Source of the DNA: SAR116 cluster bacterium AG-335-B03
GTDB lineage: Bacteria; Pseudomonadota; Alphaproteobacteria; Puniceispirillales; Marisalimonadaceae
Assembly (NCBI GenBank): GCA_003282435.1
Contig: QBZG01000003.1
Location: 1 to 64,000 of the forward strand
Length of the DNA: 64,000 nt
Reading direction: 5' to 3'
Part shown: positions 35,435-43,103 of the stretch, piece after piece
Layout: every line of letters begins with the position of its first letter
How positions within the stretch are numbered: the stretch's first letter is position 1
Notes under the pieces: generated by a model
What the model was told of the DNA's origin: nothing
Seen by the model: only the letters and a program-made list of their open reading frames with translations
Databases searched by the model: none
Made by a program: the position numbers and the translations under genes

Positions 35435-36571
35435 ATGAATTTAGAAAAATATGAAGTTGGGTTTAATATACCAGCAACCATTGGTATGGAACTTAAAGAC
35501 ATACAAACGCCTTCATTAATTATAAATTTCAAAGTTTTTCAAAATAATATTATAAAGATGAAAAATTTTATTCTAGAAAATAATGTCAAACTTAGACCTC
35601 ATGCAAAAATGCATAAATCAATTGATGTCGCAAACTATCAAATCAACTATGGTGGCGCTCACGGAATTTGTTGTCAAAAAGTTAGTGAGGCAGAAATTTT
35701 TGTAAGAGGTGGCATTAAAGATATTTTAATAACTAATCAAGTTACAGACTTATATAAGATTAATAGATTAACTAAAATGGCATCAAAAGAATTAAAATTA
35801 GGTTGTTGTGTTGATGATGCAGAAAACATTATAAATATTCAAAGAACAGCAGAAAAAAATAACGCACAAATTGATATATATATAGAGTATAATTGTGGAG
35901 CAAATCGATGTGGTATAAGTTCATTTGATCAAATTAATGAACTTTTAAATTTACTTAAAAGAATGAAAAATTTAAATTTTGTAGGTTTTCAGGCTTATAA
36001 TGGCTCAATACAACATATTGAAGATTTTGATTTAAGAAAAAAACAAGTAAAAAAAACAAGTAAAAAAATTAAACATTTAAAAACAACTTTTAAACAATAT
36101 AGTCCAATTATTACTGGTGTTGGAACAGGTTGTTTTGACTTAGAAGTCAGCGAAGACGTATATGACGAAATACAAGTTGGTTCATATGCCTTTATGGATG
36201 CTCACTATTCATCCCTAAAACATAATTATGAAACAAATAATACTAATAACTTTGATAACTCATTATTTGTTCTATCTGGCGTAATGTCTAATACATTAGG
36301 AAATCATGCAATTGTAGATGCTGGTTTAAAATCAATGTCGGTAGATAGTGGGTTGCCTTTAATAGTTAATGATGGATTAGAATATATAAAATGTTCTGAT
36401 GAACATGGTGTGTTATCCGACCCTACTAATTCTCTTAAAATAAATGATAAAGTTTTTTTAATTCCCGGACATTGTGACCCAACTTGTAATCTTCACGATT
36501 GGTATGTTGTAATTGATGATAAGAAAGTTGTAGATTTGTGGCCAGTGTCAGCCCGTGGCTTCAGTTTTTAA
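35435..36571 (+). CDS. Fold-III PLP enzyme of the D-threonine aldolase / D-3-hydroxyaspartate aldolase / DSD1 family
   Basis: LRPHAKMHKS (PLP lysine region), HGICCQKVSEAE, C-terminal metal motif GHCDPTCNLHDW. Confidence 0.82.
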   Translation: MNLEKYEVGFNIPATIGMELKDIQTPSLIINFKVFQNNIIKMKNFILENNVKLRPHAKMHKSIDVANYQINYGGAHGICCQKVSEAEIFVRGGIKDILITNQVTDLYKINRLTKMASKELKLGCCVDDAENIINIQRTAEKNNAQIDIYIEYNCGANRCGISSFDQINELLNLLKRMKNLNFVGFQAYNGSIQHIEDFDLRKKQVKKTSKKIKHLKTTFKQYSPIITGVGTGCFDLEVSEDVYDEIQVGSYAFMDAHYSSLKHNYETNNTNNFDNSLFVLSGVMSNTLGNHAIVDAGLKSMSVDSGLPLIVNDGLEYIKCSDEHGVLSDPTNSLKINDKVFLIPGHCDPTCNLHDWYVVIDDKKVVDLWPVSARGFSF

Positions 36572-36614
36572 CAATAAATCTATAAGATTTAATATTAATT
36601 AAAATTTAATTGAA

Positions 36615-36628
36615 TGACGGATGGGTTG
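36615..36628. repeat. Degenerate direct repeat of tRNA-Ser 3' end (putative distal att remnant)
   Basis: TGACGGATGGGTTG vs TGGCGGATGGGGTG at 41871..41884, 12/14 identical. Confidence 0.45.
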
Positions 36629-36817
36629 ATGGGTAGTCAGTATGATCATTAACTTTGCAAGCGAGAGTGCCACAAATCTATCAATAACTGCCTATTTATT
36701 TGTCAAACCTAAATTATTTAGCTATATTTAAATCTTTGAGTATTGAAGTATTTATTTCTTGAATATTGTTTATTGACAAAACTTTCAGCTTAATCTTTCT
36801 TTTTAAAGGGTGCTTTG

Positions 36818-39148
36818 ATGTCACAGCAAAATGGTTCGTATGGCGAGTGGATTCTTAAATATAGATTTCTAGTTTTAGGTCTCATTACATCTGTAACTTT
36901 GATTGCTGCTGCAGGCGCCCAATTTCTATACTTTGACAATGATTACAGAGTATTCTTTGGTAAAGAAAACCCTCAACTTAAAGCATTTGAACAAATCCAG
37001 CAGACCTATACCAAAATTGATAACGTTAACTTTGCCGTTGATCCAATTTCAGGCAAAGCTAACACGCCTGAGGTGCTGGCCGCTGTTGAGGAATTAACTG
37101 AAATTGCGTGGCAACTTCCTTTTTCCATCCGAGTTGATAGCCTTTCAAATTATCAGCATACCGAGGTTGAGGGTGATGATTTGATTGTCAGGGATTTATA
37201 TACTGATGCAATTTCAATAAGCGCTAATGAGCAATCTTTGATTGATAATATTAGCACGACCGAGCCAGCTCTGGCAGGAAAAATTCATGATAAGCAACAT
37301 CGGGCTACATCAGTAAATGCAACCATTCAAATGCCAGGAATGAATGCTGACGAGGTTGCTATTGTGGCGGCCGCTGCACGCAAAATGGCTACCGAGATCG
37401 AAGCCAAACATAACGTCAAAATTCGTTTGGGAGGTGTTATTTTTCTTAATAACGCTTTTTTGGAATCATCAATGCTGGACATGGCAACATTAGTGCCGGC
37501 GATGTATTTGGTCATTTTAATTGTCGCTTATTTATTGCTTAGATCGATAATGGCAACATTTTTGGTGCTTTTTGTTGTTGTGCCAAGTATCATGGTGGCT
37601 ATGGGCGCTGGAGGGTGGATGGGCATTGGCCTAACACCGCCATCGGCCAGTGCACCAACCATTATCACCACCCTTGCGGTCGCCGACTCAATCCATTTAT
37701 TGGTAAGTATGTTCAACCGAATGCGGGCAGGGCATAGTCAACGCGACAGCTTGCTTTACAGTATACGAGTTAATGGTAAACCTATTTTTCTAACTAGTCT
37801 GACAACGGCAATGGGTTTTCTGTCGATGAATTTTTCAGATTCCCCACCGTTTCACGATCTGGGTAATATAACAGCAATAGGCGTAATGGCTGCCTGGATA
37901 TTTTCAATTGTTCTATTACCTATTCTCATAAGCTTTGTGCCGCTAAAATCAAAAGCTACTTTGGCAAAGCTTGATGATAAAATGGGAAAGCTTGGTGTAT
38001 ATATCGCTTCGCGTTATAAGTCGGTTCTAACTGCCAGCGTTATTATCTCAGTTAGTATTCTGTCACTTATTCCACTCAATGAAATTAATGATGACTTTGT
38101 TAAATATTTTGACGACTCAGTCCAGTATCGTCAGGATACCGACTGGATTAGTAGCAATCTAACTGGTGTCAATCAGGTACAATTTAGTTTGCCTGCTGGC
38201 GAATCCAATGGTGTCAGTGAACCGGTCTTTATTGAAAAAGTATCTAATTTTACCGCTTGGGCGCATAACGAGCCTGTGGTTACACACGTCCAATCTATTT
38301 CGGACACTTTTAAGCGTCTTAATCGTGATTTGAACGCTGGTGATCCGGCTTTTTACCGAGTGCCCGATACAAGGAAACTTGCCGCCCAATACCTACTTTT
38401 ATATGAGTTATCCTTGCCATTCGGTTTGGATTTGAACAATCAACTTGATATCAGCAAATCATCAACACAGGTTATTGTCACAATTGACGATATGACCACG
38501 AATGAACTTCGTGCCTGGATTGCTCGGGCTGAGAGCTACCTTAAGGATGAGCTTGATTTTAACCTGACAGCTGTCGGACCTACTGTAATGTTTGCTTATA
38601 TTTCCGAACGTAATATTCAAAGTATGCTGCTAGGAACCCTTGTTGCAGTTTTTCTGATTAGTGGCGTTATTCTAATTGCCTTACGTGATGTCCGTCTTGG
38701 TATCATCAGCTTGATACCTAATTTGCTACCTGCGGCTCTTGCCTTTGGTCTTTGGGGTTTGCTTGTGGGGCAGGTCAATATGGCTGTCGCTGTTGTTGCG
38801 GGTATGGCGCTTGGCGTTGTGGTTGACGATAGTGTTCATTTTCTTAGCAAATATCAGATTGCTCGTCGCGAATTAAAACTGTCTGCGCATGATGCTGTCA
38901 TTTCTGCTTTCAATGGTGTTGGTACGGCACTTGTTGTCACAACCCTTATACTAACAGCTGGTTTTGCTATTCTGGCTCAATCTACTTTTGGCGTGAACAG
39001 CAATATGGCAATGTTAACAGGCATAGCCCTTGTTATAGCTTTGATTGCTGATATGACTTTACTTCCTGCATTGCTGATAGCACTTGATAAGGATAAAAAA
39101 GAAACCACACCGGTAATGGGTGCTAAAGAAGCACCGCAAAATGCTTAA
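36818..39148 (+). CDS. RND superfamily/MMPL-type exporter
   Basis: Two repeated halves, each with a large periplasmic loop plus a TM bundle (IITTLAVADSIHLL; VVDDSVHFLSKY). ATG at 36818 preferred over the TTG at 36815. Confidence 0.9.
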   Translation: MSQQNGSYGEWILKYRFLVLGLITSVTLIAAAGAQFLYFDNDYRVFFGKENPQLKAFEQIQQTYTKIDNVNFAVDPISGKANTPEVLAAVEELTEIAWQLPFSIRVDSLSNYQHTEVEGDDLIVRDLYTDAISISANEQSLIDNISTTEPALAGKIHDKQHRATSVNATIQMPGMNADEVAIVAAAARKMATEIEAKHNVKIRLGGVIFLNNAFLESSMLDMATLVPAMYLVILIVAYLLLRSIMATFLVLFVVVPSIMVAMGAGGWMGIGLTPPSASAPTIITTLAVADSIHLLVSMFNRMRAGHSQRDSLLYSIRVNGKPIFLTSLTTAMGFLSMNFSDSPPFHDLGNITAIGVMAAWIFSIVLLPILISFVPLKSKATLAKLDDKMGKLGVYIASRYKSVLTASVIISVSILSLIPLNEINDDFVKYFDDSVQYRQDTDWISSNLTGVNQVQFSLPAGESNGVSEPVFIEKVSNFTAWAHNEPVVTHVQSISDTFKRLNRDLNAGDPAFYRVPDTRKLAAQYLLLYELSLPFGLDLNNQLDISKSSTQVIVTIDDMTTNELRAWIARAESYLKDELDFNLTAVGPTVMFAYISERNIQSMLLGTLVAVFLISGVILIALRDVRLGIISLIPNLLPAALAFGLWGLLVGQVNMAVAVVAGMALGVVVDDSVHFLSKYQIARRELKLSAHDAVISAFNGVGTALVVTTLILTAGFAILAQSTFGVNSNMAMLTGIALVIALIADMTLLPALLIALDKDKKETTPVMGAKEAPQNA

Positions 39149-39175
39149 GCCATGATGTTGACTAAGGAGACTAAA

Positions 39176-39961
39176 ATGAAACTCGCTACGGTAACCACTT
39201 TTGTTACTATCGCCTCTGCCGTTATGACAATGGCGGCAATTGCCTCGCCTGAAAAAGGACTAGAGATTGCGATTGAAGCCGATAGCCGCGACAAGGGGTT
39301 TCGTAATTCAACCGCCCAAATAAAAATGATCTTAATGGATAAATATGGCCAATCAACTGAACGTGCGATCCGTAATAGAACGTTTGAGGGTGATAACGAA
39401 GGTGATAAGTCTCTGGTGATATTTGATAGTCCAGGTGATGTGCGTGGCACAGCTTTCCTTTCGCATACAAAAAAGGCTGACTCAGATGACCAATGGTTAT
39501 ATTTACCAGCTCTGAAACGAGTTAAGCGTATCGCATCCTCAAATAAAGCAGGTCCTTTTATGGGTAGTGAATTTTCTTATGAAGATATCGCCAGTCAGGA
39601 AGTTGAAAAATACACCTATAATTATTTGCGTGATGAAGAGTTGAATGGTCTTGACTGTTTTGTTGTTGAATATGATCCGGTTGATCGCAAAAGTGGCTAT
39701 AAGCGCCAGATTGTTTGGATGGATAAGGCTGAGTACCGTGTACACAAAATTGATTTCTATGACCGCAAAGACGCACTTTTGAAAACCTTGACCTATGAAG
39801 ATTATAATCAATATCTAGATAAATTCTGGCGGTCTAATCGTTTAGTTATGATTAATCACCAGACAGGCAAGAAAACGGAACTCGTATTTACCGATTGGAA
39901 GTTTCAGACCGGTATGACTGAACGTGATTTTGAAAAATCCGCATTGAAACGGACACGATGA
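39176..39961 (+). CDS. Outer-membrane lipoprotein-sorting (LolA-like) periplasmic protein
   Basis: Signal peptide; WLYLPALKRVKRIASSNKAGPFMGSEFSYEDI, typical of LolA-like proteins next to MMPL exporters. RBS AAGGAG before ATG 39176. Confidence 0.87.
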   Translation: MKLATVTTFVTIASAVMTMAAIASPEKGLEIAIEADSRDKGFRNSTAQIKMILMDKYGQSTERAIRNRTFEGDNEGDKSLVIFDSPGDVRGTAFLSHTKKADSDDQWLYLPALKRVKRIASSNKAGPFMGSEFSYEDIASQEVEKYTYNYLRDEELNGLDCFVVEYDPVDRKSGYKRQIVWMDKAEYRVHKIDFYDRKDALLKTLTYEDYNQYLDKFWRSNRLVMINHQTGKKTELVFTDWKFQTGMTERDFEKSALKRTR

Positions 39962-41124
39962 TTACGTATTATGCTCGTTGCTTTGCTGTTGTCCTTTTGT
40001 TAACACAACCGGCATTTGCTGGTAAGGTTAATGGCAAGCTTTCATCACGGCTAGATTTTTATCCTGATCATGCTGATGGTGCGGCTTCAGAAGGGCGCTC
40101 GGCGGAAGTAAAGATTGATGCCTTTCATGATTTTGAGAAAATTCGAATTGTGGGTGAATTCATTTTCCGTGGGGATGAAAAAGATAATGGTCGCCGGATT
40201 ACTGAAGCTCGACAAGCTTATTTTCGTAGTCCCTTCGCAGGATTTGATTTTTTTGTTGGAAATCGTCAGGAATTTTGGGGTAAGGCAGAAAGTAAAAATG
40301 TTGTTGATGTTATTAATCAGTCCGATGCTGCAGCAAATGAGGGTAAATCAGGTAAACTTGGAGCACCATCTATATCTGCTGAACGCTATCTAGATATTGG
40401 TGACCTGCAGCTTTGGTATATTTCTAGTTTTCGAGAAAAAACATTTAATGATAGTGACGCGCATCCGAGTACTGGAGTTCCGGTCAGTTCTGCACAATAT
40501 GCGCGTAATGACGGCAAGGATGCAGATGACTTTGCGGCACGCTTGTCTAGCTTTGCTGGAGATTGGGATCTAGCTGGAAGTGTTTTTTACGGTACCGCTC
40601 GTGATCCAATTTTGTCTGTCAACAGTAATGGAAGTGCATTAAACCCCCATTACGCTTTACAAAAATCAATAGGTTTTGAAGCTCAATATACGGGCAATGT
40701 AACATTGCTCAAATGGGAAAGCCTTCATGGCACCCAAAGCAGCTTAATTGGCGCTCATGATTTTGCGGCGGCTGTTGCGGGAATTGAATATACTTATTAC
40801 GGAGCATTTGAAACAATATGGGATATTGGCTTGCTTGGTGAAATTCAACATGATGACCGTCCACAGGCCGCGGCCAATCAATTTGGTGTTGCGGGTGTAA
40901 GGCTTGTATTTAATGACATTGCAGACAGTAATTTCTTATTTTTGGCATCAGTGGATCGTAAAACTGATCAGTCCTTTGTATCTTTGGAAGCGTCGCGACG
41001 GATCAATGATGTCACTAGTGTCAAATTGACCAGCCAGTTTTATAATGCACGCACGGCCACGTCTGCATTTGGCCAGCTATCGGATGATGATGCAATCACT
41101 TTAACGCTAGATATATTTTTTTAG
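39958..41124 (+). CDS. Putative outer-membrane beta-barrel/porin-like protein
   Basis: Signal peptide ending QPAFAG, alternating beta-strand pattern, C-terminal ...TLDIFF ending in aromatic F; overlaps the upstream gene by 4 nt. Confidence 0.75.
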   Translation: MITYYARCFAVVLLLTQPAFAGKVNGKLSSRLDFYPDHADGAASEGRSAEVKIDAFHDFEKIRIVGEFIFRGDEKDNGRRITEARQAYFRSPFAGFDFFVGNRQEFWGKAESKNVVDVINQSDAAANEGKSGKLGAPSISAERYLDIGDLQLWYISSFREKTFNDSDAHPSTGVPVSSAQYARNDGKDADDFAARLSSFAGDWDLAGSVFYGTARDPILSVNSNGSALNPHYALQKSIGFEAQYTGNVTLLKWESLHGTQSSLIGAHDFAAAVAGIEYTYYGAFETIWDIGLLGEIQHDDRPQAAANQFGVAGVRLVFNDIADSNFLFLASVDRKTDQSFVSLEASRRINDVTSVKLTSQFYNARTATSAFGQLSDDDAITLTLDIFF

Positions 41125-41367
41125 AACAATATGTTTATTAGTAAACTTCAATAAAAATAAGGATTATTGTACCTATTTCTTAATCAACATTAATCAATGT
41201 TAACAAGTTGTTCTACCAACTTATTTACAAATAATTAAATAAGCTTATAATATTCAAAGGAAATACCCTGCCAAGTTATTGTTTTTCTTTACTCGTTGTG
41301 CATAGGATGGGTAGTAATTTTATGGAAAATCTTTCTCCTAATTGAGAGGTTAGAAAACTTTACTGAA

Positions 41368-41760
41368 ATGCTAATTTTTTCACTCATAGTCCTAATAGTA
41401 TTGGGAAATTTTATTTATGCTTATCAATGTATTTTCCAAACACGCAAGTATATTGAGAAATATGGCTTCGGTGAAGGTAGCGCAATTATGACAAGACTTG
41501 TTGGTACTTTTGCTGCCGGCTTTGCAGTCACCCTAGCTATTGCTTTATTCACTTCTATCCAAGGCGCTTGGTTACTATTTGTCTATGGTTTTGTGCAGGC
41601 ATGTATTGGCGGTGTTGTTTGCTTTCAAACAATCCATAGTTATTGGGGTTCTGTTAACGGCGTAAAGACATCTGCTGAAGGGTACGTCGCCCCTGCTATA
41701 ATGGCATTTTTAAACTTAATGGTGCTTGTTTCTGGTTGGGACATTCTGTTTAAAATATGA
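41368..41760 (+). CDS. Small multi-pass membrane protein of unknown function (ORF extends upstream to 41296)
   Basis: About four hydrophobic segments; probable start is the internal ATG at 41368. Confidence 0.55.
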   Translation: MLIFSLIVLIVLGNFIYAYQCIFQTRKYIEKYGFGEGSAIMTRLVGTFAAGFAVTLAIALFTSIQGAWLLFVYGFVQACIGGVVCFQTIHSYWGSVNGVKTSAEGYVAPAIMAFLNLMVLVSGWDILFKI

Positions 41761-41807
41761 CCGCTATATCGTAAGGAATAATTTCAATATCAAATAATTG
41801 TAAGTTA

Positions 41808-41870: not shown

Positions 41871-41960
41871 TGGCGGATGGGGTGGGATTCGAACCCACGG
41901 AAGGCTTTCACCTTCGCCGGTTTTCAAGACCGGTACTTTCAACCGCTCAGTCACCCATCC
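41871..41960 (-). tRNA. tRNA-Ser(UGA)
   Basis: Reverse complement GGATGGGTGACTGAGCGGTTGAAAGTACCGGTCTTGAAAACCGGCGAAGGTGAAAGCCTTCCGTGGGTTCGAATCCCACCCCATCCGCCA: acceptor pairs, T-loop GGTTCGAATCC, long variable arm, loop CTTGAAA (anticodon TGA), encoded CCA. Confidence 0.95.
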
Positions 41961-42128: not shown

Positions 42129-43103
42129 ATGGCCATAATTAAAACGTTTAAATTCTTTCTTTATATACTAATATCGTTAGTTTTATTATCTACCCAAGCT
42201 TTTTCAAATGACACATTTAGTGATTTTGTTTCAGGTATATCAAATGAGGCTAAAAAAAAAGGTATTTCCTTAAAATTAATTAAAGATTTTAAAACTAAGG
42301 TTGTGTTTATTCCTAGAGTTATTGAGTTAGATAGATCGCAGCCTGAGTTTAAATTAACCTTAAACCAATATCTTGCCAGGGTTGTAACTTCGTCAAGAAT
42401 TAAAAAAGCAAATAATAAATATAAAAAAAATAAAAAAATATTAAAGGTAATTAGCAAATATTATGGAGTTCAAGCTCGTTTTTTAGTTTCTTTATGGGGA
42501 ATAGAAACAGATTTTGGAAGATTAACTGGTGGTTTTCCTGTTGTTTCAGCTCTGTCTACATTAGCATTTGAAGGCCGAAGACATGAATATTTTAAAAAAG
42601 AATTATTTAATGCTCTTAAAATTATTAATGATGGGCATATCACATTAAGTAAAATGACTGGATCATGGGCAGGTGCCATGGGACAATGCCAATTTATGCC
42701 ATCAAGCTTTATAAATTATGCAAACGACTGGGATAAGGACGGAAGTAAGAATATTTGGACATCCAAACCAGATGTTTTTGCTTCTGCAGCTAATTATTTA
42801 AATAAGGTAGGATGGTCAGATAAAATAACTTGGGGTAGGAAAGTTTATATAGGTCAATTCAATAAGGAATTAAAAGAAAATAAATATTATTTATTAAATA
42901 AATGGTCATCAAGTGGTATTTTAAATGAAAACAAAACAAAATTACCAAATGTTAAAATAAAAGCCCGTCTTATTATACCTAAGGATTATGGTAATTATGG
43001 ATATTTAGTTTATAATAACTTCGAATCTCTTTTGAATTGGAATAGATCAAATTATTTTGCAATAGCTGTTGGTAAATTGTCGGATACTATCCATGAAAAT
43101 TAA
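42129..43103 (+). CDS. Lytic murein transglycosylase (MltB family)
   Basis: WGIETDFGRLTGGFPVVSALSTLAFEGRR, GSWAGAMGQCQFMPSSF. Confidence 0.92.
   Translation: MAIIKTFKFFLYILISLVLLSTQAFSNDTFSDFVSGISNEAKKKGISLKLIKDFKTKVVFIPRVIELDRSQPEFKLTLNQYLARVVTSSRIKKANNKYKKNKKILKVISKYYGVQARFLVSLWGIETDFGRLTGGFPVVSALSTLAFEGRRHEYFKKELFNALKIINDGHITLSKMTGSWAGAMGQCQFMPSSFINYANDWDKDGSKNIWTSKPDVFASAANYLNKVGWSDKITWGRKVYIGQFNKELKENKYYLLNKWSSSGILNENKTKLPNVKIKARLIIPKDYGNYGYLVYNNFESLLNWNRSNYFAIAVGKLSDTIHEN

Follow-up and report, generated by a model that had tools for sequence, protein, structure and literature searches.

Introduction

Two described systems are among those that most closely resemble the locus considered here. 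The AmeABCD system of Castellaniella defragrans consists of an HAE3-type RND transporter, a LolA-superfamily protein with a DUF1329 domain, a DUF1302 outer-membrane protein, and AmeC, and its deletion cuts monoterpene tolerance (PMC6394551). In Thalassolituus oleivorans growing on the n-C28 alkane, the MMPL-LolA fusion protein TOL_3187 is up 42-fold and the porin TOL_3188 is detected only under this condition (PMC6304351). The locus analyzed in this work is a set of three tandem open reading frames (ORFs), all on the + strand at positions 36818–41124 of a 64,000-nucleotide stretch of DNA (hereafter the window; contig QBZG01000003.1, positions 1 to 64,000) from SAR116 cluster bacterium AG-335-B03. 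They encode an RND/MMPL inner-membrane transporter, a secreted LolA-like protein, and a secreted protein that is probably an outer-membrane β-barrel.

Our preferred reading, to which we give a probability of about 0.62, is that the trio is a horizontally acquired operon for the proton-driven export of a hydrophobic molecule, and that it is mobile as a 5-kb block among SAR116 bacteria. The trio is not novel in itself, being a widespread operon type that is known but uncharacterized. The new aspect is its mobility, i.e., the 5-kb form, of which one copy lies inside an integrase element. The host (genome G000) is a low-GC member of SAR116 (Puniceispirillales), a group in which a subclade of low-GC, streamlined bacteria has already been described (PMC8547437).

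Extent and composition of the block

A first-pass annotation of the window had described a tight or overlapping trio encoding an RND/MMPL protein, a secreted LolA-like protein, and a secreted protein ending in Phe, set in a GC-rich block with distinct coding; ORF calls, Pfam matches, and signal peptides confirmed the former, and base composition the latter. The GC content of the trio is 0.420 versus 0.292 elsewhere in the window (z = 5.3), the maximum for any other equally long block being 0.342, and GC content at third codon positions (GC3) is 0.36, 0.37, and 0.29 for the RND, LolA-like, and third genes versus a flank-ORF mean of 0.17. The span of 36818–41124 given in that annotation holds for the trio but not for the boundaries of the insert. 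Alignment by blastn with four other SAR116 genomes (G009, G013, G023, and G015) placed the edges at 36688/36689 and 41766–41789; the real unit is a mobile block of 5.1 kb with approximate edges 36688..41789 (+ strand), which includes a fourth ORF that had been overlooked, as had the adjacent tRNA-Ser gene.

The fourth ORF (41368..41760, + strand; the listed frame opens at 41296) encodes a 130-residue protein that is a hydrophobic membrane protein by hydropathy and has no Pfam match. It travels with the trio in the genus: 11/11 RND-bearing genomes have it, whereas among the 29 that lack the RND gene it was seen in G024 alone. The G024 copy (L137 9621-10013), which has no trio, lies between a tRNA-Ser (GGA) gene and a 17/19-base copy of its 3′ end. 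The right edge of the block in the window is ~80 bp from a tRNA-Ser (TGA) gene found with ARAGORN (41871..41960, − strand), whose 3′ end points toward the block.

Acquisition and exchange among SAR116 species

The proposal, first made from the window alone, that a streamlined genome gained the block in one piece is strongly supported because a sister genome has the empty site, the 5.1-kb edges are constant at unrelated loci, cassette and core genes are incongruent, and the composition is foreign. The comparison of sister genomes that the first-pass annotation had called for found the block in 11 of 40 genomes of the same genus. The flanking host genes encode a BhcC-like/D-threonine aldolase-type pyridoxal phosphate enzyme on the left (35435..36571, + strand; PF14031/PF01168) and an SLT_2 lytic transglycosylase on the right (42129..43103, + strand; PF13406). 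In the sister genome G022, the BhcC-like, tRNA-Ser, and SLT genes are contiguous, and the gap between BhcC and SLT is 516 bp versus 5558 bp in the window. Across the genus this interval runs from about half a kilobase up to 20 kb, and such variability in length marks it as an island hotspot; in G035, further cargo separates the block from the 130-residue ORF.

As the host assembly (1.45 Mb) is in 62 contigs and is 66% complete, the compositional block could in principle be an artefact of assembly or binning. This is contradicted by G034 and G039, separate single-cell assemblies whose left junction and gene order from BhcC to the cassette match those of the window, as well as by the number of genomes with the block, and we consider it extremely improbable. 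G034 is, moreover, colinear with the window on both sides of the block (94% identity over 10.4 kb).

The cassette and the core genes tell different histories. The RND protein of the window is 93, 92, and 92% identical to those of G063, G043, and G076, where identity for MetG is 62–63%; in G095, which is at the same MetG distance, RND identity is 78%, so that the high values elsewhere are not intrinsic to the RND protein. The block common to G013 and G009 (5744 bp) is 99.2% identical, and the RND gene within it is 99.4% identical at the nucleotide level with 0.98 agreement at fourfold sites, whereas the SLT genes of the same two genomes are 73% identical with 0.35 agreement; the disparity between block and core gene implies recent transfer. 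Conversely, G009 and its sisters G008 and G023 have SLT genes that are 94% identical but RND genes that are only 90% identical. Composition is host-like in G063 (cassette GC3 0.43, host 0.45) but foreign in the low-GC genus (0.36 versus 0.17 in the window), a contrast that suggests a higher-GC SAR116 bacterium as the source of the cassette. A SAR116 cassette at 83–92% identity was also seen in a record titled Euryarchaeota archaeon (L045), which is probably misbinned.

Since gene loss is the rule in streamlined ocean bacteria, an envelope exporter of 5 kb that they gain time and again and pass from species to species presumably benefits them. Gene exchange in SAR116 can be tested directly on the near-identical copies of G013 and G009.

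tRNA genes and carrier elements

One complete vehicle is in G013, where the block lies inside a 13.9-kb element (L139 2287-16241) with a satellite-like layout and several ORFs to which families assign no function. At its two ends lie identical 60-bp copies of the 3′ portion of tRNA-Met (L139 2306-2365 and 16182-16241); a tyrosine integrase gene (PF00589) adjoins the RND gene, and a prim-pol/D5 (primase-helicase) protein is encoded at the opposite end. This closed element is one example of how such cargo is carried. Elsewhere, the block sits in the tRNA-Ser hotspot (G000, G034, G039, and G035), ends beside tRNA-Asn (G008 and G023), or has at its left edge a degraded tRNA that scores 28.5 bits, slightly below the Rfam threshold (G009). 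In G034 and G039, att-like matches to the 3′ end of tRNA-Ser are 13–16 bp long. In our reading, tRNA-targeting integrative elements carry the block in at least part of its moves among SAR116 species; for the window copy, whose route of arrival we infer, the carrier element would be gone, with only the cargo remaining by tRNA-Ser.

A serious rival is that the 5-kb block moves via homologous recombination between flexible islands, the tRNA genes being mere sites where islands accumulate. The integrase-free state of the window block fits this view, as do the identical edges inside different islands and the situation in G039, where another integrase element, equipped with a tRNA-Ser att copy of its own, lies between the block and the tRNA, i.e., beside the block and not surrounding it. 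The edges also have no insertion sequence or transposase, and none is encoded by the ORFs between BhcC and SLT, so that the arrangement of a composite transposon was not found. The G013 block, which is within att repeats and has an integrase adjacent, and the sharp edges that coincide with tRNA remnants point the other way. We rate recombination between islands at somewhat below even odds and continue to favor carriage by tRNA-targeting elements.

Other cargo was seen at these sites. The separate integrase island of G039, stacked beside the cassette, is a 7-kb stretch in tRNA-Ser (L120 7865-14804) that encodes an 835-residue ORF without significant family and other unassigned ORFs, and the tRNA-Ser hotspot of G013 (L123) contains different cargo and an integrase-like ORF that is truncated and has an arm DNA-binding domain. 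Viral cargo was considered and rejected since viral contigs had no relative of the RND or LolA-like protein; phage records yielded nothing closer than an exporter of 22% identity, present in two records from Acinetobacter.

The three proteins

Sequence families were tested with Pfam and NCBIfam models at curated cut-offs. The RND protein (776 residues; 36818..39148, + strand) probably starts at the ATG at 36818, three bases past the listed TTG. It passes as a member of the MMPL/RND superfamily (PF03176; 119.5 bits, cut-off 20.5). Of the finer models, HAE3 (TIGR00921) scores best at 145.3 bits, below its cut-off of 351.9, and HpnN (TIGR03480) scores 104.7 bits, far below its cut-off of 751.85. 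The closest solved relatives by sequence in the PDB are MmpL5 and HpnN. Residues Asp290, Asp670, and Asp671 are invariant (alignment A2); from their positions and the MmpL3 motif, we take D290 and D670/D671 to belong to the proton relay of transmembrane helices (TM) 4 and 10. An HAE1-type tripartite pump was excluded because the protein has only 776 residues (HAE1 proteins have ~1000) and nothing in the operon matches an HlyD-type adaptor or a TolC-type protein.

The LolA-like protein (39176..39961, + strand) has a signal peptide; its ORF opens at 39152, and the likely start is the ATG at 39176, which is preceded by AAGGAG. It matches PF17131 (LolA_like) at 226.8 bits versus a cut-off of 30 and, more weakly, DUF1329; these were its only Pfam matches, the canonical LolA family itself giving none. 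Solved homologues are 3bk5 (E 9e-93), 4z48, 9tp6, and 3buu, of which 9tp6 was deposited as Porphyromonas gingivalis LolA3 (PMC13103446).

The third gene (39958..41124, + strand) overlaps the LolA-like gene by 4 bp and encodes a 388-residue protein with a signal peptide, no later internal TM helix, and a C-terminal FF; nearly all its relatives likewise end in Phe or Tyr. An AlphaFold model from 19 sequences has 18 strands, and Foldseek with this weak model ranked porins and AlgE top (TM-score 0.37–0.49). The Pfam search gave only a sub-threshold match to OprD (E 0.034), Porin_4 was matched by 2/22 family members (best E 0.0041), DUF1302 by neither the protein nor any of the 22 members, and a PDB profile search with the family alignment matched no solved sequence. 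The protein is likely an outer-membrane β-barrel, a reading consistent with every test run, although the model is of low confidence. The barrel proposed in the first-pass annotation accordingly stands as regards signal peptide, terminal Phe, and strands but not as a confident fold, and the search with family models that it had advised identified the first two proteins but not the third.

The trio outside the genus

Within the SAR116 order, the RND, LolA-like, and barrel genes occur together at all loci with enough sequence. At ten loci in other genera of the order (L022-L031), RND and LolA-like proteins are fused in one ORF of 965–1094 residues that is followed by a barrel homologue. The barrel family is present in 57 of 385 sampled alphaproteobacterial genomes. 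Inspection of neighbors in 1.5-kb flanks, which supplied the co-occurrence count suggested at the outset, found both RND and LolA immediately adjacent at 22/28 distant alphaproteobacterial barrel loci; the other six had LolA only (one, a truncated locus), RND only (one), or neither (four). Co-occurrence conserved across Alphaproteobacteria and the RND-LolA fusions together support the three genes acting as one functional unit, and the fusion further suggests a hand-off from pump to carrier. Establishing a substrate for one copy of the trio would annotate many alphaproteobacterial copies.

A homologous trio (44, 54, and 30% identity, the barrel gene being divergently oriented) lies beside GmtY, the gamma-mobile-trio recombinase, on Pseudoalteromonas plasmid p1 (L052), so mobility is not specific to SAR116. 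On Sulfitobacter plasmids, which have a remote version of the trio, the gene order is type I polyketide synthase (PKS), RND, LolA, galE, and barrel homologue. Condensation-domain proteins are encoded near the PKS-trio region of the Sulfitobacter dubius plasmid (L199 12474-26330), which is a lead to substrate class. No consistent neighbor of the trio was found in SAR116 or Paracoccaceae except for ORFs that, read by eye, resemble HxlR- or TetR-type regulators.

Direction and substrate of transport

An exported hydrophobic metabolite seems most likely, in preference to uptake or lipid sorting, with direction and substrate judged by analogy to relatives. A hydrophobic molecule in the inner membrane or periplasm would be picked up by the RND/MMPL protein and ferried across the periplasm by the LolA-like protein, and the barrel would pass it to the outer membrane or the outside. 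Such export is plausible because of AmeABCD, TOL_3187/3188, and the PKS neighborhood in Sulfitobacter; these relatives make credible the suggestion of the first-pass annotation that a lipid or other hydrophobic compound crosses the envelope by this route, whose substrate and direction nevertheless stay at the level of analogy.

Several points weigh against this reading. As regards mobility, the window has no integrase ORF. A possible degraded att copy on its left (36612..36640, + strand; ATGACGGATGGG, resembling the tRNA-Ser 3′ end ATGGCGGATGGG) is suggestive only: the repeat is no better than shuffled controls and Rfam finds no tRNA-like remnant at the site, so an intact att site in the window was rejected. 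In other SAR116 families, the 130-residue ORF occurs without the trio next to it: among 12 genomes checked, those with an RND relative have only one of 36–38% identity, on a different contig. Since it is found without the trio, it is a partner inside this genus and no fixed subunit. As regards export, AlphaFold models of the RND protein and the barrel have low confidence (pLDDT 38.2 and 47.7), and the MmpL/HpnN matches of the former in Foldseek (TM-score ~0.25) carry no weight with such a model. The neighbors of the trio in SAR116 include no biosynthetic gene, and the alkane induction of TOL_3187/3188 could be read as uptake instead of export.

In a scheme of import or retrograde transport, the barrel would admit a hydrophobic nutrient (alkane, fatty acid, or terpene), the LolA-like protein would carry it inward, and the RND protein would act at the inner membrane. 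Besides induction on n-C28 alkane (PMC6304351), the usual barrel-first entry of hydrophobic nutrients speaks for this. However, the closest solved relatives of the RND protein are MmpL and HpnN, catabolic genes were not found beside the trio in SAR116, and the Sulfitobacter trio has a biosynthetic context, following a PKS and with galE. The RND/MMPL proteins characterized to date are known to work outward, which also weighs against import. Loss of AmeABCD, furthermore, reduces tolerance, unlike a simple uptake defect. We consider import unlikely.

The trio might instead serve envelope biogenesis, sorting a lipoprotein, membrane lipid, or hopanoid (cf. HpnN) to the outer membrane, with the barrel as receptor or cargo. 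The LolA fold, the annotation of PF17131 members as outer membrane lipoprotein-sorting proteins, and the presence of HpnN among the PDB relatives of the RND protein are in keeping with such a role, but the HpnN model falls far short of its cut-off, as noted above, and the patchy presence of the block in the genus argues against a housekeeping role. The squalene-hopene cyclase domain (PF13243) is, moreover, absent from 17 SAR116 genomes, and hopanoid transport was rejected on this ground. Envelope biogenesis is therefore also improbable in our judgment, and export remains the preferred function. A bolder extension, which we put forward only as a long shot, is that small tRNA-targeting elements of streamlined marine bacteria recurrently carry, as a cargo that stands by itself, a complete trans-envelope exporter of hydrophobic molecules, with the 130-residue protein as an extra subunit; this exporter would alter the surface of the cell or rid it of a hydrophobic toxin, e.g., as a defense against phage or grazers.

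Comparison with known systems

HpnN and MmpL resemble the RND protein of the window in belonging to the RND superfamily without a TolC-docking architecture and in having the conserved Asp in TM4/TM10; unlike the trio, their systems have no LolA-like and barrel partners in the operon. The G013 element resembles tycheposons and similar tRNA-targeting islands of streamlined marine bacteria in its tRNA 3′-end att repeats, tyrosine integrase, cargo, and small size, which is a resemblance only, and the window copy, having no integrase, differs from such islands.

Like the window, AmeABCD co-encodes an RND protein of HAE3/MMPL type (~780 residues) with periplasmic LolA-fold and outer-membrane proteins, and it lies in a genetic island. 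The window differs in that its third protein has no DUF1302 match, its LolA-like protein belongs to PF17131, its gene order is another, its block contains no AmeC-like ORF, and no monoterpene genes are nearby. TOL_3187/TOL_3188 (PMC6304351), compared at the domain level, have the same domain set and order as the window; the fused form of TOL_3187 is like the fused ORFs of other SAR116-order genomes, whereas in the window RND and LolA are encoded by separate genes, and no link to alkane degradation was seen for the window trio. The trios of Paracoccaceae, Sulfitobacter, and the Pseudoalteromonas plasmid are homologous to that of the window in all three genes but are usually chromosomal, with host-like composition where checked (G095 and G082). 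Only in the low-GC SAR116 genus is the trio split and mobile as a block of 5 kb that includes a fourth ORF.

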